Shown here piece by piece: positions 16,145-29,940 of a stretch of DNA of 64,000 nt. The translations under genes and the position numbers were made by a program. Source of the stretch: Bacteroidia bacterium (lineage in GTDB: Bacteria; Bacteroidota; Bacteroidia; M30B66); the NCBI GenBank assembly GCA_019695235.1, contig JAIBAI010000001.1, positions 1 to 64,000 on the forward strand, written 5' to 3'. Every line of letters starts with the position of its first letter. Within the stretch, counting starts at the first letter, position 1. The notes beneath the pieces are model-generated. The model made no database searches. It was not told the origin of the DNA and worked only from the letters and a program-made list of their open reading frames with translations.

Positions 16145-19100
16145 ATGAAATGGTCATTTCAAATAGGATGCCTTTTGGTAGTGCTGCTGCAAGCAGAGGT
16201 AGCGTTGGCGCAGCTGACCACCAGCGGCGGAGGGCCCGTTTCTGCAAATGCACTCGTTTCTAACCTGATCGGGCAGGGGGTAAGCTTCTCAAATGCTTCT
16301 TATACCGGCAGAGATGTTGCCATCGGTACCTTTAACGGCGTAAGCTCTAATATCGGCCTTAACAGCGGGGTGATTATTACCTCCGGCCATATCAATGTAG
16401 CACCAGGGCCAAATAACAACGGAGGAGCCTCTTATAGTAACAATGGCCCAAACATTCAGGAACTCGAAATCCTTGCCCAAAGTGTTACCTATGATGGTGC
16501 AATCCTTGAATTTGATTTTGTCCCACAATCAAACCTTATTAGCTTCAGATACGTCTTCGCCTCAGAAGAATACAATGAATACGTCTGCTCTGAATTCAAT
16601 GACGCCTTTGCATTCTTCATTACCGGACCAGGCATCATGGGCGCTGAAAACCTAGCAGTTGTACCTTCTACCACGCTTCCGGTAACAATCAATACAATCA
16701 ATAATGGCTTGGTGGGCGCCCTGGGTAGTGCCTCTAACAGCCCCTGCGAATTAGGCAACTCAGCTTATTTTGTGGGCAATACACTTCAAACTGTCCAATA
16801 CGACGGCTTTACAACGGTACTAACTGCGCAGCGTGCGGTTATTCCCTGCCAAACCTATCATATTCGACTGATGATTGCAGATGGAGCCGATGATATCTTC
16901 GATTCAGCCGTGTTTCTTGAAGAAAACTCCTTCAACTCGGCAACCTATACCATCAGTGTAAGTACCCCATCGAACGACTCCACCATCTTTGAAGGTTGTA
17001 CCTCTGCTACCTTAACCTTTAGCCGACCCAATGCCGACCCAACACCAATGACCATCAATTATGCTGTGAATGGCTCAGCCACACCAGGAGTTGACTACAA
17101 TGCCTTGCCGGGGGTAATTACAATTCCTGCCGGACAAAGTGATGTGAGCATAACAGTTTCAGCAATTGCCGATGGAATCAATGAAGGAACAGAAACAATA
17201 AGTATCAGAGGACTGACAAATTGTGGTGATATTCCGGTAGATATTCTTATCAAAGAAAAACCTCCGGTTCTGGTTAACATACCAACACGCTCCCTCTGCA
17301 ATGGAAGCGGCCCGGTAACCTTAACGGCCAACGTATTCGGCGGTATGCAACCTTATACCTGGCTATGGGACAATGGTGCAACTACTGCATCTATTGCTGT
17401 AAACCCTTCTGGACCTACCAACTATCAGGTTACTGTAAGCGATGCTTGCGGCACAACGGTAGTACAGACAACTACTGTGGCTGTAGCCCCGATACCAACA
17501 GCTTCTATTGGAGTTCCACCATTTGTTTGCAGTGGCATCCCGCTTACCGTAGCTTACACCGGCACTGCCACACCTGCAGCCACCTATCTTTGGGATTTCG
17601 ATAACCCGACAACTGTTTCAAGTGGTTCTGACCAGGGCCCATATCAGATAAGCTGGGATTCATCCGGTACCAAAACTATTCGTTTACAGGTAATAGAAAA
17701 CGGTTGCAGCTCGCAGGTAGTTACTGCACAAACCATCGTAAACCCAACACCAACAGCCGTTTTTGAAGTAGACCCTATCGTTTGCGCCGGACAGATTGCT
17801 ACGGTAACCTATACCGGAACAGGTACCGATATGGGAGGCTATGGTTGGGGCTTCCCCGGTGGGGTTATTATCACCGGTGGGCGCAGGGGGCCTTTTGAAA
17901 TCCGTTGGGACTCAGCCGGGGTGCATGGTATCACCCTTACCGTAACAGAAAATGGCTGTACCTCTCCGGGTGCCCAGCAGTTTGTAAATGTTCGCCCTAC
18001 ACCAGCTACCGACTTTACTGTTCAATCGCCTCTATGTCTGGGGCAACCTTCTACAATCACCTACAACGGACAGGCATCGTCAGCAGCAATATTTAACTGG
18101 AATTTCGCCGGAGGTACAGTACACAGCGGAAATAATCAAGGCCCCTTTTCGGTAAGCTGGAACAGCCCTGGTACTAAAAACGTTTTCCTTACTGTAAGCG
18201 AAAATGGCTGTACCGGACGTGTCACCAACAAGCCTGTTACTGTACTAGCTAACCCAACAGGAAACTTTACAATCGGAAGCCCCATCTGTGCCGGGCAACC
18301 AACTACTGTAACTTACACCGGAACAGCAGCCAATACCGCCCAATACCAATGGGATTTTGCAGGTGCTACAGTGCTTTCAGGAACTGGCCAGGGACCGTAC
18401 TCCATTCGTTGGGACAACCCGGGTAACTACGCACTAAGTTTGTTGGTTAACGAACAAGGGTGCAACTCTGCTGCCTATACCGCCATAGCATTGGTAAACC
18501 CTGAGCCAATTGCACAATTTGTGCTGGTCGGTCCCGTTTGCACGGGCGAAGCTACAACGGTAAGCTATACCGGGCCTTATCAAAACGGAGGCGCAAGCTT
18601 CTTCTGGGATTTTAACAATGCACAACTTATAGCAGGTTCCGGAGCTGGCCCTTATACAATTTACTGGGATACCCCTGGTAACAAGCAGGTTACACTAAGT
18701 ATGACCTCGCCTGAAGGCTGCCCTTCACAACCCATGACCAATACCATCATGGTAAATACAACCCCAACTGCAACCTTTACAGCCGAAACACCTGTTTGTA
18801 TCAAAGAGGCCTCCACTTTACAATACATTGGCTCTGCCAATCCTTCAGCAAATTACCAGTGGAACCTGGCGGGTGGGCAAATTATCAATGGCTCCGGACA
18901 AGGGCCTCTGGAAGTAATCTGGACAACCGCCGGAATAAAAAACATCAGCCTGAGTGTTACTGAAAACGGTTGCAATGCCCCGGTGCTTACACAGCAGGTG
19001 CGGGTAAAACCTCTCCCCACAGGGTATTTCACTGTAGTTACTCCGGTTTGTGCCGGAAGTCCTTCTTCTGTGATGTATGCAGGTACTGCAGCCCCCAATG

Positions 19101-21313
19101 CCTTATTTGTATGGGACTTTGATCAGGGAAGTGTATTATCAGGCTCCGGACCAGGCCCTTATCAGGTTAGCTGGGACCTTCACGGCCCTAAAAACATCAG
19201 TCTGACGGTAACCGAAGACGGCTGTACCGCTGCTCCGGAAGTAAAACAAGTACAAATTTTACCAGTACCAGGCAATTCATTTACGCTTAACGGGCCACTT
19301 TGCATAGGTGCGCCTGCTACGCTTACCTATACAGGCAATGCCTTTCCTACCGCTACCTATAACTGGAATTTTGACGGAGCAACATTGCATGCAGGGCAGG
19401 GGGCAGGTCCTTATCAGCTAAGTTGGTCAAGTCCCGGACTTAAACGTGTAAGCCTACAAATTGACCAGGCCGGATGTCCTTCTATCCCTTCATTCCGTGA
19501 GGTAATGGTGTATCCCATTCCGGAAGCGCCTTTTCATGCTACAGATTCAGTGTGTAGCGGCCAGGAAGCACAAATAATTTACGATGGCATAGCCGGAACA
19601 CAGGCATTTTATCATTGGAACTTTCAGGGAGCAACCGTGCTAAGCGGCAGTGGTAGAGGCCCTTTCAGCGTCTTGTGGAACAGCGCAGGTGAAAAAAATA
19701 TCCAGCTTACAGTAGAAGAAAATGGTTGCCGCTCCTTGCCCGCAAACTTCCAAACACAGGTATATTCCTATCCGACAGCAGTTTTTGAGGCAGACCCATT
19801 TGCCTGTCAGGGCACTGAAAGTACTGTTACTTTTACAGGTGCAGCTGATAACCAGGCTATTTTTAACTGGAATTTTGACGGGGCAAGCATTGTTTCCGGT
19901 TCAGGGCGCGGTCCATATAGGCTGAAATGGGAAAATCCAGGCACCAAAAGCATTTCACTCGACTTGAGCCAACACGGCTGCGCAGCACCTCCGGCAAACT
20001 CTATGCTCACTGTTGCACCCAGTCCGGTTGCAGATGCCGGCGCTGACCAAATTATCTGCTCTGGCGAAACTGTTCAGCTTGGAGCCGCTGCCCAAACCGG
20101 CTATGCTTATTCGTGGCAACCTGGTTCAGGCCTGAACAATGCGGCCTTGCCCAATCCTCTGTTCAGTGTGCGCAATCAGCAACAAGATACTTTGCGGCTT
20201 GAATTGGTGCTTACAACAAGCCTGGGTGCCTGCACCGATTATGATACAGTGCTGGTTAACATACGCCCCGAACCTCATGTGCGTTTACAAGTACCGCAAG
20301 GACAATGTTATGGCAGCCATTCATTCGCATTCTCTGCTGAAGCCGCTGCATCTCAGAATGTACAGTACCATTGGGATTTTGGACCACAAGCCAATATCCG
20401 GAATTCAAACTTGCCGCATCCGGCCAATATTCGTTACCCTGAACCTGGCGTGTATCCTGTGCGACTTGATTTTGAAATTGATGGCTGTCCGGGCATCAGT
20501 TTAAGCGATTCGGTAATGGTTTATGCCATGCCGGAAGCCATGTTCACCGGAAATCACCTGGAAGGCTGTCCTCCCTTGAAAGCCCGCTTGCTCAACCAAA
20601 GTATTTTCAACCAAAACTACCAATATGTTTGGGATATGGGCAATGGAGAAACAGTAAATGCCTATCAGCCTGACTATACTTTCACCTCAGAAGGACAATT
20701 TTCAATCACCCTGAAGGTGTTAAATGAATTTGGTTGTGCCGGAGAATTTTCAATGCATTCACTGGTCAATGTATTTCCTGTACCACGTGCCGGATTTCAG
20801 ATAAATCCTGAAGAGTTAAGCACCGAACATCCGCTGGCAAATATTACCGACCAGTCTGTAGGTGCTGTTAGTTGGAGATACCTCACCGGCACCGGAGCGG
20901 TTGTAAATCAGCCTAGTTTTACATGGCTTTATCCGGAAAAAGGCGTTTATCAAATAAGTCAGGTGGTTACCAATAAATGGGGCTGCAAAGATTCAGTACT
21001 TAAAAAGCTCAATGTGAAACCTTTGATGACCTTTTACGTGCCGAACGCATTTACACCCAATGATGATGGTGATAACGACTACTTTCGTTGTTATGGACTT
21101 AACATTGAGGAGTTTAGCATGAGTATTTTCACACGCTGGGGAGAGCTAGTGTTTCATACCAATGACATCATGGAAGGCTGGGATGGACGTGTTCAAAATG
21201 ACCCTGATAGGAAAATTTCACAGATGGATGTTTATGCCGTACTGATTTACGTAAAAGACCATCCGGATTTACCGCCCCGTAGGATTGACCACCGGGTGAC
21301 CTTGGTTAAATAA
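16145..21313 (+). CDS. Giant T9SS type B surface protein with ten PKD-like repeats
   Basis: A 1722-residue secreted protein. The signal peptide is MKWSFQIGCLLVVLLQAEVA (residues 1-20) and ends around AQ at 22-23. Residues ~25-265 form a choice-of-anchor L-like domain (FVFASEEYNEYV-type segment, EFNDAFAFFITGPG). Residues ~270-370 resemble a Calx-beta domain (GVDYNALPGVITIPAGQ). After a PKD-like module, ten tandem repeats of ~84 residues span ~449-1293, each with one Cys near its start (VCAG-type) and one in NGC near its end. Further PKD modules follow. The last ~95 residues (FYVPNAFTPNDDGDNDYF) are the type B gliding-associated C-terminal signal. It is probably exported by the T9SS and held on the cell surface or at junctions. 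The ligand is unknown. Confidence 0.9.
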   Translation: MKWSFQIGCLLVVLLQAEVALAQLTTSGGGPVSANALVSNLIGQGVSFSNASYTGRDVAIGTFNGVSSNIGLNSGVIITSGHINVAPGPNNNGGASYSNNGPNIQELEILAQSVTYDGAILEFDFVPQSNLISFRYVFASEEYNEYVCSEFNDAFAFFITGPGIMGAENLAVVPSTTLPVTINTINNGLVGALGSASNSPCELGNSAYFVGNTLQTVQYDGFTTVLTAQRAVIPCQTYHIRLMIADGADDIFDSAVFLEENSFNSATYTISVSTPSNDSTIFEGCTSATLTFSRPNADPTPMTINYAVNGSATPGVDYNALPGVITIPAGQSDVSITVSAIADGINEGTETISIRGLTNCGDIPVDILIKEKPPVLVNIPTRSLCNGSGPVTLTANVFGGMQPYTWLWDNGATTASIAVNPSGPTNYQVTVSDACGTTVVQTTTVAVAPIPTASIGVPPFVCSGIPLTVAYTGTATPAATYLWDFDNPTTVSSGSDQGPYQISWDSSGTKTIRLQVIENGCSSQVVTAQTIVNPTPTAVFEVDPIVCAGQIATVTYTGTGTDMGGYGWGFPGGVIITGGRRGPFEIRWDSAGVHGITLTVTENGCTSPGAQQFVNVRPTPATDFTVQSPLCLGQPSTITYNGQASSAAIFNWNFAGGTVHSGNNQGPFSVSWNSPGTKNVFLTVSENGCTGRVTNKPVTVLANPTGNFTIGSPICAGQPTTVTYTGTAANTAQYQWDFAGATVLSGTGQGPYSIRWDNPGNYALSLLVNEQGCNSAAYTAIALVNPEPIAQFVLVGPVCTGEATTVSYTGPYQNGGASFFWDFNNAQLIAGSGAGPYTIYWDTPGNKQVTLSMTSPEGCPSQPMTNTIMVNTTPTATFTAETPVCIKEASTLQYIGSANPSANYQWNLAGGQIINGSGQGPLEVIWTTAGIKNISLSVTENGCNAPVLTQQVRVKPLPTGYFTVVTPVCAGSPSSVMYAGTAAPNALFVWDFDQGSVLSGSGPGPYQVSWDLHGPKNISLTVTEDGCTAAPEVKQVQILPVPGNSFTLNGPLCIGAPATLTYTGNAFPTATYNWNFDGATLHAGQGAGPYQLSWSSPGLKRVSLQIDQAGCPSIPSFREVMVYPIPEAPFHATDSVCSGQEAQIIYDGIAGTQAFYHWNFQGATVLSGSGRGPFSVLWNSAGEKNIQLTVEENGCRSLPANFQTQVYSYPTAVFEADPFACQGTESTVTFTGAADNQAIFNWNFDGASIVSGSGRGPYRLKWENPGTKSISLDLSQHGCAAPPANSMLTVAPSPVADAGADQIICSGETVQLGAAAQTGYAYSWQPGSGLNNAALPNPLFSVRNQQQDTLRLELVLTTSLGACTDYDTVLVNIRPEPHVRLQVPQGQCYGSHSFAFSAEAAASQNVQYHWDFGPQANIRNSNLPHPANIRYPEPGVYPVRLDFEIDGCPGISLSDSVMVYAMPEAMFTGNHLEGCPPLKARLLNQSIFNQNYQYVWDMGNGETVNAYQPDYTFTSEGQFSITLKVLNEFGCAGEFSMHSLVNVFPVPRAGFQINPEELSTEHPLANITDQSVGAVSWRYLTGTGAVVNQPSFTWLYPEKGVYQISQVVTNKWGCKDSVLKKLNVKPLMTFYVPNAFTPNDDGDNDYFRCYGLNIEEFSMSIFTRWGELVFHTNDIMEGWDGRVQNDPDRKISQMDVYAVLIYVKDHPDLPPRRIDHRVTLVK
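17489..20030 (+). repeat. Ten tandem ~254-bp repeats encoding PKD-like modules
   Basis: This is the DNA coding for residues ~449-1293 of the giant protein. Units share a P.PT..F....VC.G....YTG pattern, then W.F......SG...GP....W..PG.K...L.V.ENGC. The units are clearly diverged at nucleotide level, so the array is old and not a recent expansion. Confidence 0.8.
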
Positions 21314-21887
21314 TCGCACCAATACCAGTTGTGTACACGATTACCTTGTTGTCGTCAAAGAACTGATACCGTAGCAAATACAGGGTGTTGCCGTGCAATA
21401 AAGCCCGGAAGTCGCCTGATTCAGGATGAAAAACAAATGGCAATACCCTGATGTCATTGATAAAATTCAAGCCTCTTTGGCCGTAACTTTTATAGATAGC
21501 TTCCTTCGCACCCCAAAGAAGATGTAGTGCAGGCAGAACAGGCATCCCGGCTATACAGTCAAGCTCATCAGCATGAAAAACACGATGAGCAATGATGCGA
21601 ATTTTATCACGCAGTTGTTCTATATCTACCCCGGGCTGGTGATCGGAGGCACATGATACCGCCAGGATTTCTCCGGTATGGCTTAATGATACCTGCAACC
21701 TGCTATTAAGCAAAAATGGCTGACCTGATTGATGCTTCTCAAGTTGTATTTGATTGTCGCCACATAAACTTTGTATGCAGTTCTGCTGATACGATAAACC
21801 CCATGCATTCAGCCAGTTAAATAATGCTATCTGAAGGCTGGCAGATGATTCAATTATACGAACAGGCAAAGCAAAATCGTTAGACAT
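21306..21887 (-). CDS. 4'-phosphopantetheinyl transferase, Sfp-like
   Basis: Transfers phosphopantetheine from coenzyme A to carrier proteins. The protein is 193 aa. GVDIEQL (Asp88, Glu90) and WGAKEAIYKSYG (residues 125-136, with Lys128, Glu129 and Lys133) are the two magnesium/CoA-binding motifs of the superfamily, and VSLSHTG lies before them. It overlaps the end of the giant protein gene by 8 bases in convergent orientation. No carrier-protein or polyketide gene is nearby, so the target is not evident. It may be the primary enzyme for fatty-acid ACP. Confidence 0.92.
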   Translation of the reverse strand: MSNDFALPVRIIESSASLQIALFNWLNAWGLSYQQNCIQSLCGDNQIQLEKHQSGQPFLLNSRLQVSLSHTGEILAVSCASDHQPGVDIEQLRDKIRIIAHRVFHADELDCIAGMPVLPALHLLWGAKEAIYKSYGQRGLNFINDIRVLPFVFHPESGDFRALLHGNTLYLLRYQFFDDNKVIVYTTGIGAII

Positions 21888-21926: not shown

Positions 21927-24900
21927 ATGAAACTGTATTCGAAAATCTTCAGAAGTTTTTTATTGCTTGTTTTCGGGCTACTCACCATTCCGGGTATGGT
22001 GAAGGCTCAAATGAACATCAATATTCAGGACCCTATGAACCAGGCTTTCCTGAATGAAATAATTCATACCCTGGTGGGTAATGGGGTGTATGTTACCCCT
22101 GGAAGCGTTTCTATTAGTGGAAACGCAGCACAGATTGCCACCTATAACATCAATGGAACAACAAGCAATATCCCTTTTTCGAAAGGGGTAATTCTTTCTA
22201 CTTCATTTGCACAAAATATTGCTGGAGCTGATGTTCAAAGTGAGCCTTTAAGTAATCAGGTTCCGCCTATCGGCGCTTCTGATCCGGGAGATCCTTTACT
22301 GAGCCAGTTTACACCCAACAACATTCGTGATGCAATTACCCTTGAATTCAGGTTCAGACCGCAATCAACCCCGCTTGTTTTCAGATATGGCATTGCTACA
22401 GAGGAGTATCCGGCCTTTGTGACCAATGAAGACTTTAATGATGTTTTTGGCTTTTTTATTACCGGAGAGAACCCTTCGGGAGGGAATTACACTGATCAGA
22501 ATATCGCAATCTTACCCAATGGGCAGGTTGCCGGGGTATATAATATATTCAGCAATATTACATACATGATGGATACCAGAGACAATCCAACCCATCAGTT
22601 CAATGCTGTGTCTACTGCCTTTTCTTGTTCACTGAATGTAGTGCCCTGTACAGATTATGTAATAAAAATTAAAATATGCGACGTGTCGGATGAGTCGTTT
22701 GACTCGGCTGTATTCTTACAGGCAAACAGCTTTGGCTCTATACCGGTCTCTTTAAGCCCACTTACTGCCAACGGTGACTCATCAACCATTGAAGGTTGTG
22801 CCCCTGCCAAAATTGTTGCTTCTAAAAATCATCCCTCATTGCTCAATCAGGAGGTTACAATTCCCCTTACAATCAGTGGAACTGCCACCAACGGTACGGA
22901 TTACACCGGATTGCCTGAAAGTATTGTTATTCCGGCAGGTCAAACTTCAAACACTGTTACCATCAATGCATTAGCCGACAATTTGGCCGAACCCGATGAA
23001 AGTATCATTATTGCCTATCCTTCAAGTTGTGGCTTTTTCGATACTATTTCTCTTGTTATCAGAGAAAAGCCGCTGATAATTGTAACCCCGGGTGATTCCC
23101 CCTCAATGTGCGCAGGTGCTGGTCCGGTGGATATCTCAGCTGCTGCCTCAGGAGGAATAGGACCTTATACCTATTCATGGTCTAATGGTGCTGGCGACAG
23201 TCTGATTAGCGTAAATCCGGCTGTTACAACAGATTACGTAGTCACGGCTACTGATGCCTGTGGTGGTACTGGTACTGCTACTGTTACAGTAAATGTAGTT
23301 ACGCATTCCCCTCCCCCCCAGGTGCAAAGTAACTCACCTGTTTGCGCAACTTTTGATTTGAATCTAAATTGTCCGGAAACAGCCGAGTCGTACACCTGGT
23401 CTGGTCCGGGCGGCTGGATCAAGACCGGCGCTGCTGTCACCCGTACAGCGATGACCCCCTTGCAGGCAGGAACCTACTCGTTGCAAATCATAAAAAATGG
23501 CTGTCCGAGCAGCCTTGCAAACTTTGAAGTTGTAGTGTTTGACTCAAACTTCGCCCCACCAGCGGCAAGCAATAGCCCTGTATGTGCAGGTAAAACCTTG
23601 ACTTTGCAAACCGGGGTAAGCGGAGCCACAAAATATATCTGGACAGGTCCTGGCGGTTTTAGTGCGAATGAAGAAAATCCGGAGATAAGTCCTGCTGGCA
23701 TGTCAGAACAAGGTGATTATCAGGTTTATTTTATTGCTGGTACATGCACCTCTGCTACTGCAACTGTTCAGGTGCAGGTTAAACCAACGCCGCTTGCCAA
23801 TGCAGGACTTGATTTTGAGGTTTGTGCCCAACAGGTAATTGCCATAGGAACCCCTGCCGAACCTGGGGTAAGCTATACCTGGATGCCTTCAACAGGCCTT
23901 GACAACCCCAATACTGCAAACCCGCAGTTAACGCCGTTAAATGTTACCCAGCAGGCACAAACACAGGCTTTTCTATTAAATGCAAATCTAAATGGTTGCA
24001 TTGCTACAGATACTGTTAAGGTACTGGTGAAGCCCGTTCCGGTAGCAGGTTTCCCAACTCCGGCGGCAAAATGTTTTCGGGGCAATTCATTCGACTTTAA
24101 TGCACAGGGCAATTATCCACCCCAGGCTGTTTATGAATGGGATTTTGGACCCTGGGCAACACCAAATACCGGTAATACCCGCAGTGTTACAGGGGTGCAA
24201 TACGGCGCCACAGGCAACCATCCGGTAAGCTTGAAAATTGAATTAGATGGTTGTACCAGCAATGTATTTACCAATAATATTCAGGTGCTTGAAATGCCGG
24301 TGGCAAATTTCACTGCCAATAAACTTGAAGGTTGTGAACCCTTACCGGTTCTATTCGAGAATCATTCAGAAAATACACAGCAAAACCTTCGTTATCTATG
24401 GGACTTTGGCAATGGCTTTGCCAGCACAGCACAGAGTCCGAATATTATTTTTAGCAAGGCGGGGCGATTTACAGTTTCTTTAGAAGTTACAAACAGCCAG
24501 GGTTGCACCGACAAGTACGAAGTGCCTATGATGATTGCTGTGTATCCAACCCCGGTGGCAAGGTTTGCATTAAGCAAGTTCCAGACAACCATTACAGAAC
24601 CCTTGGTGTACATGGATGATCTTTCACGCTTTGCTGATACATGTGTTTATTTGATTGAGCGTGGAACAACTGTTATTGACAGTGTGCAGGCATTTGATGC
24701 ATCCTACGCATTTCGTGATTCTGGCTTATATACAGTTACCCAGCGTTTGACAAACCGCTTCGGGTGTTCAGCAAGTTTCGAGCGGAATGTTAAAGTTGAT
24801 TTAGGCTTTAAAATCTACATTCCTACTGCTTTTACACCGAATAGTGACGATAAAAATGACTATTTCAGAGCTTATGGTGAAGATATTTCCACTTATTACA

Positions 24901-25085
24901 TACGCATTTATAACCGTTGGGGGCAACTGATTTACCAGTCATGGGATATGGCAAATGGTTGGGATGGTACCTCGCTGGTTGATGGTAAGGTGGTGCCGGG
25001 AGGTTCTTACTTATACCTTATCAGGTTGAAAGATAAGTACGGAAAGGATTATTCGTTCGATGGAACGATACATGTTCTTCGTTGA
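21927..25085 (+). CDS. T9SS type B surface protein, paralogue of the 1722-aa protein
   Basis: A 1052-residue exported protein with the same order of domains as the giant upstream. A signal peptide (~1-27) is followed by a choice-of-anchor L-like domain (~30-265, with FRYGIATEEYPAF and DVFGFFITGENP), a Calx-beta-like domain (GTDYTGLPESIVIPAGQ), several PKD/Ig-like modules (~385-960), and a type B C-terminal signal starting FKIYIPTAFTPNSDDKNDYF. It lacks the ten-unit repeat array. Typical PKD segments such as YLWDFGNGF are visible. It is probably exported by the T9SS and attached to the surface. The pair looks like a duplication followed by repeat gain in one copy. Confidence 0.9.
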   Translation: MKLYSKIFRSFLLLVFGLLTIPGMVKAQMNINIQDPMNQAFLNEIIHTLVGNGVYVTPGSVSISGNAAQIATYNINGTTSNIPFSKGVILSTSFAQNIAGADVQSEPLSNQVPPIGASDPGDPLLSQFTPNNIRDAITLEFRFRPQSTPLVFRYGIATEEYPAFVTNEDFNDVFGFFITGENPSGGNYTDQNIAILPNGQVAGVYNIFSNITYMMDTRDNPTHQFNAVSTAFSCSLNVVPCTDYVIKIKICDVSDESFDSAVFLQANSFGSIPVSLSPLTANGDSSTIEGCAPAKIVASKNHPSLLNQEVTIPLTISGTATNGTDYTGLPESIVIPAGQTSNTVTINALADNLAEPDESIIIAYPSSCGFFDTISLVIREKPLIIVTPGDSPSMCAGAGPVDISAAASGGIGPYTYSWSNGAGDSLISVNPAVTTDYVVTATDACGGTGTATVTVNVVTHSPPPQVQSNSPVCATFDLNLNCPETAESYTWSGPGGWIKTGAAVTRTAMTPLQAGTYSLQIIKNGCPSSLANFEVVVFDSNFAPPAASNSPVCAGKTLTLQTGVSGATKYIWTGPGGFSANEENPEISPAGMSEQGDYQVYFIAGTCTSATATVQVQVKPTPLANAGLDFEVCAQQVIAIGTPAEPGVSYTWMPSTGLDNPNTANPQLTPLNVTQQAQTQAFLLNANLNGCIATDTVKVLVKPVPVAGFPTPAAKCFRGNSFDFNAQGNYPPQAVYEWDFGPWATPNTGNTRSVTGVQYGATGNHPVSLKIELDGCTSNVFTNNIQVLEMPVANFTANKLEGCEPLPVLFENHSENTQQNLRYLWDFGNGFASTAQSPNIIFSKAGRFTVSLEVTNSQGCTDKYEVPMMIAVYPTPVARFALSKFQTTITEPLVYMDDLSRFADTCVYLIERGTTVIDSVQAFDASYAFRDSGLYTVTQRLTNRFGCSASFERNVKVDLGFKIYIPTAFTPNSDDKNDYFRAYGEDISTYYIRIYNRWGQLIYQSWDMANGWDGTSLVDGKVVPGGSYLYLIRLKDKYGKDYSFDGTIHVLR

Positions 25086-26986: not shown

Positions 26987-28489
26987 ATGCGTTTCCGAGC
27001 CTACAAAAAAATATTGCTCTTGCTGCTCTTGCTGAGTGGCTGGCAAGTACGGGCAGGCAATGCCTTTGTGCTCTCATCCGAAATCATTCAGTCATGGGCT
27101 GAAATCAATCGTTTTCGAACAATTACGGGAGCGAAACTGATAGATGCCGATGCAGCGCTAAACAAGGGAAATCCTTTTCAGGTATTTTTAACCGACCAGG
27201 CTGCTTTCATAGAAATTCTTCTTGCCGATGACCCTGGGCGGTATCGTATAGAGCTTTCATTGCGTCAAAACAGAGAAGAAGCGCTTACATCAGCTGACGC
27301 ACACTCGCCATTTTACCTGTTTATTAGAGCAGAATTTCATTTACACTGGGCTGTTCTGCGCATGAAATTTGGAGATTATGTTCAAGGAGCACTTGAATTG
27401 AGAAAGGCAAACCAGCTTATTAAGAAGAATATAGAGAAATTTCCAAATTTCAAACTGAATTTAAAAACCCTTGGCATCATACAAGCAATAGCTGGGGCTG
27501 TTCCGCCCTCATTTCAGTGGCTGGCTTCAAAGGCCGGAATTGTTGGCAATGCTGAGCAGGGTTTGGCTACTTTGCAAGCCTTAGAAAATTGGTTAGCAAC
27601 AAGTGGGCAGTTCCAGTTCTTGCTTCCTGAAATTGAGTTCTATCAGCTCTTCATTTATAGAAACCTCCCGGAGGAAAAATCGAATCATTTACTTGAAACA
27701 GCAGCTTTAAAGCTTAGTGCACGCGAACCTCTCATAGCGTTTGCGTTAGCCTCTCTGGCGCAAAAAAGAAATCAGCCGGGCAGGGTAGTGGCGTTAATTC
27801 AGGCGTATCAGAAAAGCAATACTGAAATAAAATTTTGCTATTTAGATTATATACTGGCTGAGGCCAGGTTAAACTCCAAGGTAAATGGTGCCGAAAAGGA
27901 GTTTCAAGCGTTTATCGCCTGTACCAAGGGTGAGCAGTACGTTAAATCAGCCTATCGCAAATGGGCATGGGCGGTACTGCTAAAAGGCGATACGCTTGGG
28001 TATAAACGCCTGATGCGGCTGACCCTGACAAAAGGTGCATCCGAACATGAAGATGACCGGCAGGCAATGCTTGAAGCTGAGAATATGACAACACCTCCTG
28101 AGGCATTGATTCGTTCGAGAGTCTGTTTTGATGGCGGGAGGTACCGCGAATCGGTACAATCACTTTTAGAATTACATCAAACCCATCCGGCAAAGCTTGA
28201 AATCAAAGCAGAACTGAATTACCGTTTAGGCAGGGCATACGATAAGTTGGGCGAAACAGAATTGGCAGTAATTTTCTATAAAGCTGCCATGGTACAGGCA
28301 GAATATTTGCCAGACTATTTTTATGCAAGCGCTGCCTTTTATATGGCTAATATTGAGAAGCGAAGAAATGCTTCAGACAGGGCTGCCAAATTGTACAAGC
28401 AAGTACTTCAAAGTGCTGAGCATCCGTATAAAAAAAGCCTGGATGCAAAAGCAAGAGTGGCCTTGGCCGACTTGAAAAAGTATGATTAA
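26987..28489 (+). CDS. Secreted TPR-repeat protein
   Basis: A 500-residue exported protein with signal peptide MRFRAYKKILLLLLLLSGWQ (cleavage probably after QVRAG). The mature part is almost wholly helical, with TPR-like pairs most evident at ~375-490 (ELNYRLGRAYDKLGETELAV, then AAKLYKQVLQSAEHPYK). It may act as a periplasmic scaffold. There is no catalytic motif, and I do not recognise a specific family. It follows the zinc-ribbon gene after 37 bases and its last bases overlap the end of the convergent OmpP1-like gene. Confidence 0.75.
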   Translation: MRFRAYKKILLLLLLLSGWQVRAGNAFVLSSEIIQSWAEINRFRTITGAKLIDADAALNKGNPFQVFLTDQAAFIEILLADDPGRYRIELSLRQNREEALTSADAHSPFYLFIRAEFHLHWAVLRMKFGDYVQGALELRKANQLIKKNIEKFPNFKLNLKTLGIIQAIAGAVPPSFQWLASKAGIVGNAEQGLATLQALENWLATSGQFQFLLPEIEFYQLFIYRNLPEEKSNHLLETAALKLSAREPLIAFALASLAQKRNQPGRVVALIQAYQKSNTEIKFCYLDYILAEARLNSKVNGAEKEFQAFIACTKGEQYVKSAYRKWAWAVLLKGDTLGYKRLMRLTLTKGASEHEDDRQAMLEAENMTTPPEALIRSRVCFDGGRYRESVQSLLELHQTHPAKLEIKAELNYRLGRAYDKLGETELAVIFYKAAMVQAEYLPDYFYASAAFYMANIEKRRNASDRAAKLYKQVLQSAEHPYKKSLDAKARVALADLKKYD

Positions 28490-29940
28490 AACCTTGTGCC
28501 GAGACTTACCAACAGGCTGTTTCTGTTAACCTTTAGGTCGGCAAGTTGGGTCATTGCCAGTTCAGGGCTGTAAGGGGTAAAATTGAGCTTTTGAAAGCTT
28601 AACTGGTAGGCGAAGTCAACAAAGAAACCTTCATTTCTGAAACCTACACCAAGCGCATAAACTGTTTGGTTGAAAGGCTTTGGGTCGCTGATTTTGGTTG
28701 AGCCGTAAAGCTGTACCCCTGTTCTTATATAGTGTTCGTCAAAGCGGAGTTCAGCGCCAACTCTCAAATTACCGGTTGAAGCATAATTGGTTCGGAGGTT
28801 TTCGTTGTCTTTGTCAAAACTGCCTTCCTCGTTCCGCAAGCGCAGGGCACTATAATTTACCGTTTCATAATCAAGAGAGATAATTGCACGTTTTTTCAAA
28901 ATCGCTGCCATGCTGAAAGTAACACGGGGTGATTGCCTAATCCGGTAGTTTGCCCTTCCTTCCGGCGATTGGCCTTCATGAAGCCCTTCTGCCGTACGGC
29001 TTGAGATACTTGATGAATAAGACCTTGATATGTTGTAATCAATTGGTAAAATTGCTGAAGCACCCAGACGGAACCAGTCATTTGCGCGATAGATGATACC
29101 TCCCTTAAATGCTACAGATGAGCCACGCTCATTCATTTGGGTGCGATAATTGAGGGCTGAAAAGCTGGCTACTGAATCGGTTTCATTGTTTTCGATATGA
29201 TTCATACTTTGTTCATATACGATACGGCGAATTGAAAAACCACCGCCAACATATAAGCGGTTACTGTAGTTGCCGGCATAGGTAAAATTGGTTTCTCCAA
29301 TTCGACCGCTGGATTCAAGATTGATTTTTTGTGTAGCGCCTCCATTGCGCATTCCATTTTGACTAAAATATTCAGTATTGCTTGAGGGTTTATTATCAAT
29401 CAGATAACTGTTCCAAAACAGGAGTGTGCTGAAGGGGTCAAGGTCAGCGGCCTGACTTCCATTTGAGGCGGCAGCTGCAGCATTGACAATTGAACCATCG
29501 GTATTTACGCCCCTGACGGATATTCTTTGGTGCAGGTTGGCAGTGCGATTAACTCCAATACTGATAGTACTACTGAGCCATCCCTTTGTTTTCTTTTGAT
29601 TGCCGGAAGGGAAATGCAACACCATGTGCAAATTACTGATGTTAAAATTGAATTTAGAATTGTCTTCTGTTTGTCCGTAAAACCGGCTTTCAGCGTTGTA
29701 ATTAAACAAGTTAGGACTAATTACTACTTCAGAAGAGCGGTACAAGCCCAAACCGGCAGGGTTGATGATAACGCTGCCGAAATCACCACCAACGGCTCCG
29801 GATGCTCCTCCCATTCCCAGCGATTGTGCTGTACCGCCGGGGCTGGTCAGGCTATAACGGATAGCATCCTGGGTATTTTGGGCAATAATGCCTGAGCTTC
29901 CGGCAAGCAATAAAAAGGAAGAAAAGAATGCCGCTTTCAT
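28486..29940 (-). CDS. OmpP1/FadL-like outer-membrane barrel protein
   Basis: A 484-residue outer-membrane protein. A signal peptide (~1-20) is followed by QDAIRYSLTSPGGTAQSLGM and GSVIINPAGLGLYR, the start pattern typical of OmpP1/FadL/TodX transporters of hydrophobic compounds. The rest alternates in beta-strand fashion with many Tyr/Asn/Arg, and the chain ends in a terminal Phe (GTRF) as usual for barrels. It lies 2 bases downstream of the aromatic-rich lipoprotein gene, so the two are co-transcribed. The substrate is unknown. Confidence 0.82.
   Translation of the reverse strand: MKAAFFSSFLLLAGSSGIIAQNTQDAIRYSLTSPGGTAQSLGMGGASGAVGGDFGSVIINPAGLGLYRSSEVVISPNLFNYNAESRFYGQTEDNSKFNFNISNLHMVLHFPSGNQKKTKGWLSSTISIGVNRTANLHQRISVRGVNTDGSIVNAAAAASNGSQAADLDPFSTLLFWNSYLIDNKPSSNTEYFSQNGMRNGGATQKINLESSGRIGETNFTYAGNYSNRLYVGGGFSIRRIVYEQSMNHIENNETDSVASFSALNYRTQMNERGSSVAFKGGIIYRANDWFRLGASAILPIDYNISRSYSSSISSRTAEGLHEGQSPEGRANYRIRQSPRVTFSMAAILKKRAIISLDYETVNYSALRLRNEEGSFDKDNENLRTNYASTGNLRVGAELRFDEHYIRTGVQLYGSTKISDPKPFNQTVYALGVGFRNEGFFVDFAYQLSFQKLNFTPYSPELAMTQLADLKVNRNSLLVSLGTRF

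Follow-up and report, generated by a model that had tools for sequence, protein, structure and literature searches.

How the paired cysteines in a long chain of immunoglobulin-like (Ig-like) domains are bonded is the question raised by an open reading frame (ORF) in the window analysed here, the first 64,000 nt of contig JAIBAI010000001.1 of a Bacteroidia bacterium (assembly GCA_019695235.1). The ORF encodes an exported protein of 1722 amino acids (aa), with a choice-of-anchor L domain at its head, a stalk of Ig/PKD-like domains and a C-terminal type IX secretion signal (Table 1). Nearly every stalk domain has two conserved cysteines, referred to below as Cys1 and Cys2, and a sequence-only reading had proposed that they form one disulfide per module, giving an exported stiff rod. 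The head and the secretion signal fit the exported part of that proposal and stiffening by disulfides is likely, but the intradomain pairing did not hold up. The stalk is instead very probably a chain of interdomain disulfides within one polypeptide, each joining Cys1 of domain n to Cys2 of domain n+1, in an exported adhesin-like rod.

The repeats themselves are much as first described. The ten PKD-like units (84–86 aa each) occupy aa 449–1291, with units 2–10 sharing 37–46% identity with unit 1; the array begins at 17489 as reported but ends at 20017, the original end of 20030 reaching into the next, different domain. The strict cysteine pair is present in all ten units, as Cys14 and Cys73 of the unit with 58–60 residues between them, where about 60 had been claimed. 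The common mid-unit motif W.F....SG.G.GP was likewise recovered: W35, G46 and G50-P51 are invariant, as are W56 and G60, and position 37 is F in nine of the ten. On whether the units merge with a described PKD family the result is mixed. The whole protein scores above the cut-offs of PKD_4 (160.3 bits, cut-off 27), PKD (81.9, cut-off 23.5) and PKD_6 (40.5, cut-off 25), these scores being summed over the repeats, but single units match weakly (at E 0.01, four of ten for PKD_4, two for PKD_6 and one for PKD). The cysteine pair also extends beyond the ten units, to the SprB-like domain before them and the three Ig/PKD-like domains after them. Five orthologues (1726–1759 aa as stop-to-stop ORFs, 57–59% identity) could be aligned with the window protein, and all 35 cysteines past the signal peptide are invariant in the six sequences; two of the orthologues (L037 and L038) are 97.6% identical, so that the five count as four.

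The clue that prompted the idea of interdomain bonds was the last domain of the stalk, which has Cys2 only. Cysteine co-occurrence was surveyed in 185 non-redundant array proteins from the Bacteroidota, comprising 2144 domains and 1721 junctions and drawn from relatives and from public contigs as well as by the secretion signal alone. These remained from 198 proteins after any at least 80% identical to one already kept was dropped, and from 2170 neighbouring domain pairs after full coverage and a close gap were required. The sample is not random, the regions having been hand-picked among the matches listed with long ORFs preferred: L034–L053 were found by similarity to the units, L084–L162 by the head, and L163–L262 and L266–L305 by the secretion signal only. 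Loci L001–L033, 30 short loci, L263–L265, ORFs under 300 aa and proteins with fewer than three full domains were excluded, as were 30 domains with an HYR-like motif. At locus L117, the second half of a 3096-aa ORF contains, after the PKD-like array, a long run of domains that we take to be HYR-like; each of them has a multi-cysteine pattern of its own. The coupling analysis and permutation test described below used an earlier set of 152 proteins and 1563 junctions; earlier stages of the survey, with fewer proteins, gave the same picture.

Across the 1721 junctions, Cys1 of domain n and Cys2 of domain n+1 are both present in 1705 and both absent in nine, with Cys1 alone in six and Cys2 alone in one (phi 0.73). 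The two cysteines of a single domain show no such association: among the 2144 domains both are found in 1989, Cys1 only in 29, Cys2 only in 126 and neither in none (phi −0.03). Two other pairings in the junction set, Cys2(n) with Cys1(n+1) and Cys1(n) with Cys2(n+2), are also uncoupled (phi −0.01 for each). Selection bias from the profile hidden Markov model (HMM) was addressed with an HMM built with the cysteines masked. With this, 998 junctions were obtained, 982 with both cysteines, five with Cys1 only, three with Cys2 only and eight with neither (phi 0.67), and the within-domain value was again near zero (phi −0.04). Loss of both cysteines in a single event was considered and set aside, since the intervening Cys2(n) and Cys1(n+1) are kept in the co-loss junctions.

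Coupling between alignment columns gave a similar result. Among 9730 column pairs Cys1(n)–Cys2(n+1) comes third, and it leads the 5102 off-register interdomain pairs with a score of 3.51 against 1.14 for the next; Cys1(n)–Cys2(n) ranks 158th. The pair formed by columns 16 and 49 ranks eighth and served as a positive control; the two occur together in 23 of the 28 domains that have either. It corresponds to a CxxxC following Cys1 and a cysteine past strand E (for example in L210, L217, L219 and L252), and is a probable accessory intradomain disulfide. A further cysteine is found at model column 52 in 336 of 1926 survey domains.

The exceptional junctions and the ends of the arrays are informative as well. 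All six junctions with Cys1 only have an extra cysteine in the linker, compared with 28 of the 1705 ordinary ones, and in all six the follower that lacks Cys2 also carries the CxxxC and the later cysteine. These sequences suggest to us an alternative arrangement, in which the linker cysteine is the partner of Cys1(n), and the follower's CxxxC cysteine and later cysteine bond to each other. In the sole junction with Cys2 only (L048) there is a cysteine seven columns past that of Cys1, and the alignment is apparently out of register there. Before the secretion signal, 43 of 48 last domains have no Cys1, as expected at the end of an interdomain chain, and four of the five that keep it have a linker cysteine. 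At the other end, seven of the eight first domains that begin within 60 aa of an ORF start, where that start is not at the edge of its stretch, lack Cys2, the eighth being not fully readable upstream. The first-domain pattern is weaker evidence than the last-domain one because it depends on the cut used and on the exceptions.

Predicted structure is consistent with the same pairing. An AlphaFold run on units 6–9, with 43 aligned rows, gave a model with a mean predicted local distance difference test score (pLDDT) of 95.1 and a predicted template-modelling score of 0.68, in which each unit has seven strands of at least three residues (A, B, C, C', E, F and G) in an Ig-like beta sandwich. The archaeal surface-layer PKD domain 1l0q matches the model's first unit well (Z 10.1, root-mean-square deviation (rmsd) 2.0 Å, 79 residues aligned). 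Strand order in the model would put Cys1 in the turn between A and B and Cys2 in that between F and G; since the strands alternate in direction, these turns are at opposite ends, and about the length of a domain should separate a unit's own two cysteines. Strand parity thus implies that an intradomain Cys1-Cys2 distance would exceed ~7 Å, and by the same strand order Cys1(n) would be located at the end of its domain that meets domain n+1. A two-residue strand is predicted at Cys1 in model units 1–3; in model unit 4, where no domain follows, there is just one bridge residue, two positions ahead of Cys1. This pattern would fit a bonding partner in the next domain.

The head of the protein seems to continue the chain into unlike domains. 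In 65 heads, Cys235 (near the end of the anchor L domain) and Cys360 (in the Calx-beta domain) occur together in 64 and are jointly missing from one, and are predicted from this co-occurrence to pair across the two adjacent domains. Of 64 heads, 61 have both Cys285 and Cys435. The Calx-beta assignment combines a Pfam score below the cut-off (24.3 bits against 27) with an AlphaFold model resembling the CALX domain CBD1 (3ead; Z 11.2, rmsd 2.5 Å, 101 aligned). The anchor L domain is assigned by profile NF038133 (244.3 bits, cut-off 27) and was modelled confidently, most blocks of ten residues exceeding pLDDT 90; the solved-structure matches listed hardly cover it, which is no evidence of a new fold. 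Two other cysteines of this domain, Cys148 (16586) and Cys201 (16745), do not behave as a simple pair, with both in 10 of the 65 heads, one only in 43 and neither in 12.

Taken together, the 1722-aa protein would have some 16 interdomain disulfides, starting in the head and reaching the final domain ahead of the secretion signal (Table 1). In the proposed arrangement, the protein would be exported by the type IX secretion system as a cell-surface or released adhesin-like rod. Each bead would present Cys1 at its far end, in the A-B turn, and Cys2 at its near end, in the F-G turn. With Cys1 of one bead bonded to Cys2 of the next, a staple would hold every junction, in an almost unbroken chain (235–360, 285–435, 385–521 and so on to 1475–1614 at the last bead). 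Such staples would fix the angle at each junction, yielding a stiff stalk that resists pulling and proteases and that could act as a spacer keeping the anchor L head away from the cell. The architecture, the conservation and co-occurrence of the cysteines, the pattern at the array ends and the predicted fold are direct results; formation of the bonds, their location within one chain and the mechanical and adhesive role are inferred.

Several observations weigh against this arrangement. Co-losses are few and partly inherited: seven of the nine are in L039, L049 and two L050 proteins, all from the window protein's own family, and may represent two ancestral positions, the others being in L211 and L164, for approximately four independent events overall. 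With one protein taken per group, the chance probabilities were 0.004, 0.055 and 0.11. The 40 regions added later brought no new co-losses and two more discordant junctions. The coupling score depends on the same few co-losses, and beyond the two cysteine columns nothing stands out at the A-B/F-G interface in the coupling analysis of 1563 junctions. Model unit 4 also differs from the others in sequence, weakening the argument from the strand at Cys1, and model unit 1 shows the short strand next to Cys2 even though nothing precedes it in the model. In the head, Cys285 occurs without Cys435 in three of 64 cases (two of these rows stop just short of the column, and the third carries another domain at that place), and Cys148, Cys201 and Cys1649 are invariant in the orthologues yet fit no staple. 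The array ends have exceptions too. The last domain of L096 keeps Cys1 and has no linker cysteine, and since a linker cysteine is also found in nine of the 43 last domains without Cys1, it is not decisive by itself. The 60-aa cut for first domains was chosen after the result at 90 aa had been seen; at 90 aa, with edge-truncated ORFs included, just six of 17 lack Cys2. Seven of the 11 exceptions start at the edge of a stretch, three are unreadable upstream, and the remaining readable one (L130) has cysteines further upstream. Finally, searches of the host genome gave no match to the DsbB or VKOR families; the two DsbA-family matches there count in favour of the staples.

Three other arrangements of the cysteines need to be weighed against same-chain staples. 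The one that survives best, although it is quite unlikely, is a bundle of parallel chains staggered by one domain, with intermolecular disulfides between Cys1(n) and Cys2(n+1) of a neighbour. GhpA, the grappling-hook protein of Aureispira sp. CCB-QB1, is a heptameric hook used in predation. Its eight PDB entries contain 56 chains, a mean of seven per entry that would suit a multimer, and a stagger of this kind would yield the same n/n+1 pattern. It would however need an offset of exactly one domain in all of these proteins, whereas strand order in the model already places both turns at the same junction of a single chain, and the linker cysteines that accompany a missing Cys2(n+1) sit beside Cys1(n) in the same chain.

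The disulfide inside each module favoured by the sequence-only reading is less likely still. Both cysteines do occur in nearly every domain, and a disulfide within one domain is described for the giant Ig-like adhesin of Mobiluncus (PMC10619420). Against this, there are 155 single losses within the surveyed domains and no double loss, own-domain cysteines would be at opposite ends in the model, and an intradomain bond explains neither why last domains lack Cys1 nor why linker cysteines turn up at junctions without Cys2(n+1). Covariation, the pattern at the array ends and strand order together led to its rejection. Least likely of all are cysteines that are free, metal-binding or conserved for some other reason, as the lack of DsbB and VKOR matches might suggest: the paired losses, the capped ends, the linker cysteines and the DsbA-family matches point to pairing, and two conserved cysteines per junction are few for the usual metal site.

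Among known systems, the domain types, head and secretion signal of the 1722-aa protein are of known kinds. Pfam families PKD_4 (PF18911), PKD (PF00801), PKD_6 (PF19408) and SprB repeat (PF13573) share the broad fold and motifs of the array. The nearest solved relative is GhpA (PDB 9flp, 9fls, 9flu, 9flv, 9flw, 9flx, 9fly and 9g8b), which also has tandem Ig-like repeats and matches the 1722-aa protein in a phmmer search with E 1.6e-58; with three Ig-like repeats (229 aa) from the paralogue described below as query, the value was 3.5e-243. It is the best sequence match in the Protein Data Bank and also heads the structural matches. Searches with the ten-unit profile and with two-unit queries did not list it. 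The four-unit model aligns end to end in the eight GhpA entries (Z 12.1–13.4, rmsd 5.0–7.3 Å), best with 9fls_A at VIA Z 13.4 and rmsd 6.0 Å, with 301 residues aligned over the full model length and 24% identity. On Z this is tied by ICAM-5 (4oi9), an unrelated protein with four Ig domains (Z 13.1, rmsd 11.4 Å, 9% identity), and an rmsd of 5–7 Å over four domains does not show that the domain-to-domain angles are the same as in GhpA. In the small number of GhpA domains with a displayed alignment, cysteines are present at the Cys1 and Cys2 positions. The proteins also differ in length, 5898 versus 1722 aa, and in the choice-of-anchor L head of the latter.

By analogy, the closest functional parallel is the Ig-like giant adhesin of the Gram-positive Mobiluncus mulieris, a very long array hardened by covalent cross-links; its bonds are described as inside domains, unlike the junction-crossing ones predicted here (PMC10619420). 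The gliding adhesin SprB is another type B cargo of type IX secretion with long repeats (PMC12635249, PMC9143113). The Flavobacterium gliding machinery has a disulfide between SprF and GldK, which links different proteins, unlike the predicted same-chain staples (PMC12635249). Among the papers listed in a literature search for disulfides of PKD, Ig-like or type IX proteins, nothing on an interdomain staple appeared, and a search for choice-of-anchor L returned no paper. The interdomain staple rule is thus the new part, unless it has already been described for GhpA.

Features of the 1722-aa protein and its paralogue. Residue numbers are those of the respective protein; the staples are predicted pairings of Cys1(n) with Cys2(n+1).
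Feature	Positions in window	Strand	Residues (aa)	Basis or remark
Exported tandem Ig/PKD-like array protein, whole ORF	16145–21313	+	1–1722	Profiles and orthologues
Probable signal peptide	16145–16210	+	1–22	Judged by eye from sequence
Choice-of-anchor L domain (NF038133)	16250–16933	+		Profile match
Calx-beta domain, Cys285 and Cys360	16973–17260	+	~277–372	Pfam and AlphaFold match
SprB-like Ig domain, Cys385 and Cys435	17261–17488	+	373–448	Pfam SprB match below cut-off
Ten PKD-like units	17489–20017	+	449–1291	Repeat analysis
Three more Ig/PKD-like domains, both cysteines in each	20018–20779	+	1292–1374, 1375–1461, 1462–1545	
Last PKD domain, Cys2 (1614) kept, no Cys1	20780–21022	+	~1546–1626	
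CHU_C / TIGR04131 type B type IX secretion signal	21038–21310	+	1632–1722	Best stretches aa 1632–1691 and 1632–1686
Predicted staples, head			235–360, 285–435	Inferred pairing
Predicted staples, ten units			385–521, 462–605, 547–689, 631–773, 715–859, 799–943, 885–1027, 969–1111, 1053–1195, 1137–1279, 1221–1363	Co-occurrence and strand order
Predicted staples, domains after the ten units			1305–1448, 1388–1531, 1475–1614	
Paralogue (1052 aa), same plan with fewer repeats	21927–25085	+		Profiles; last domain again without Cys1

The C-terminal sorting domain exceeds both of its cut-offs (TIGR04131 40.8 bits against 35, CHU_C 48.9 against 27). The paralogue lies just downstream, and a corresponding set of staples is predicted for it (aa 241–368, 291–445, 395–526, 473–607, 553–691, 633–776, 716–860 and 803–947). 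Between the two adhesin-like genes, on the opposite strand, is a 4'-phosphopantetheinyl transferase-like gene (21306–21887), which overlaps the end of the first by eight bases. Ten nearby ORFs in the window were scanned; they include housekeeping genes (GAPDH, phosphoglycerate mutase and a NIF3-like gene), and none of these ten matches the PorP/SprF family. FadL-family barrels like PorP/SprF are proposed to anchor type B cargo (PMC9143113). One of the ten ORFs, on the reverse strand at 28489–29940, has an OMPP1/FadL match under its cut-off. The SprA translocon is encoded in the host genome, split over contigs (TIGR04189, positions 1010–2318 at 1263.7 bits, with a piece covering 3–307 on another contig).

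More generally, the survey makes it somewhat more probable than its opposite that a rule applies to type IX secreted stalks in the Bacteroidota: Ig-, PKD- and SprB-like beads would be stapled Cys1(n) to Cys2(n+1), also across unlike domains (anchor L to Calx-beta to SprB to PKD). If so, the order of the beads, the ends of the arrays and the linker cysteines would all follow from the staple, and the stalk would be one continuous disulfide-linked rod. Long surface stalks need to resist both pulling and proteases, and in this design the vulnerable joint from one domain to the next would have a covalent link of its own. The beginning and end of a rod, and any hinge in it, could then be read from the cysteine pattern alone, and the stiffness of many uncharacterised Bacteroidota stalks could be tested by changing a single residue. 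It would also raise the question of how such a chain folds and oxidises, and whether it does so before or after passing through the SprA channel.
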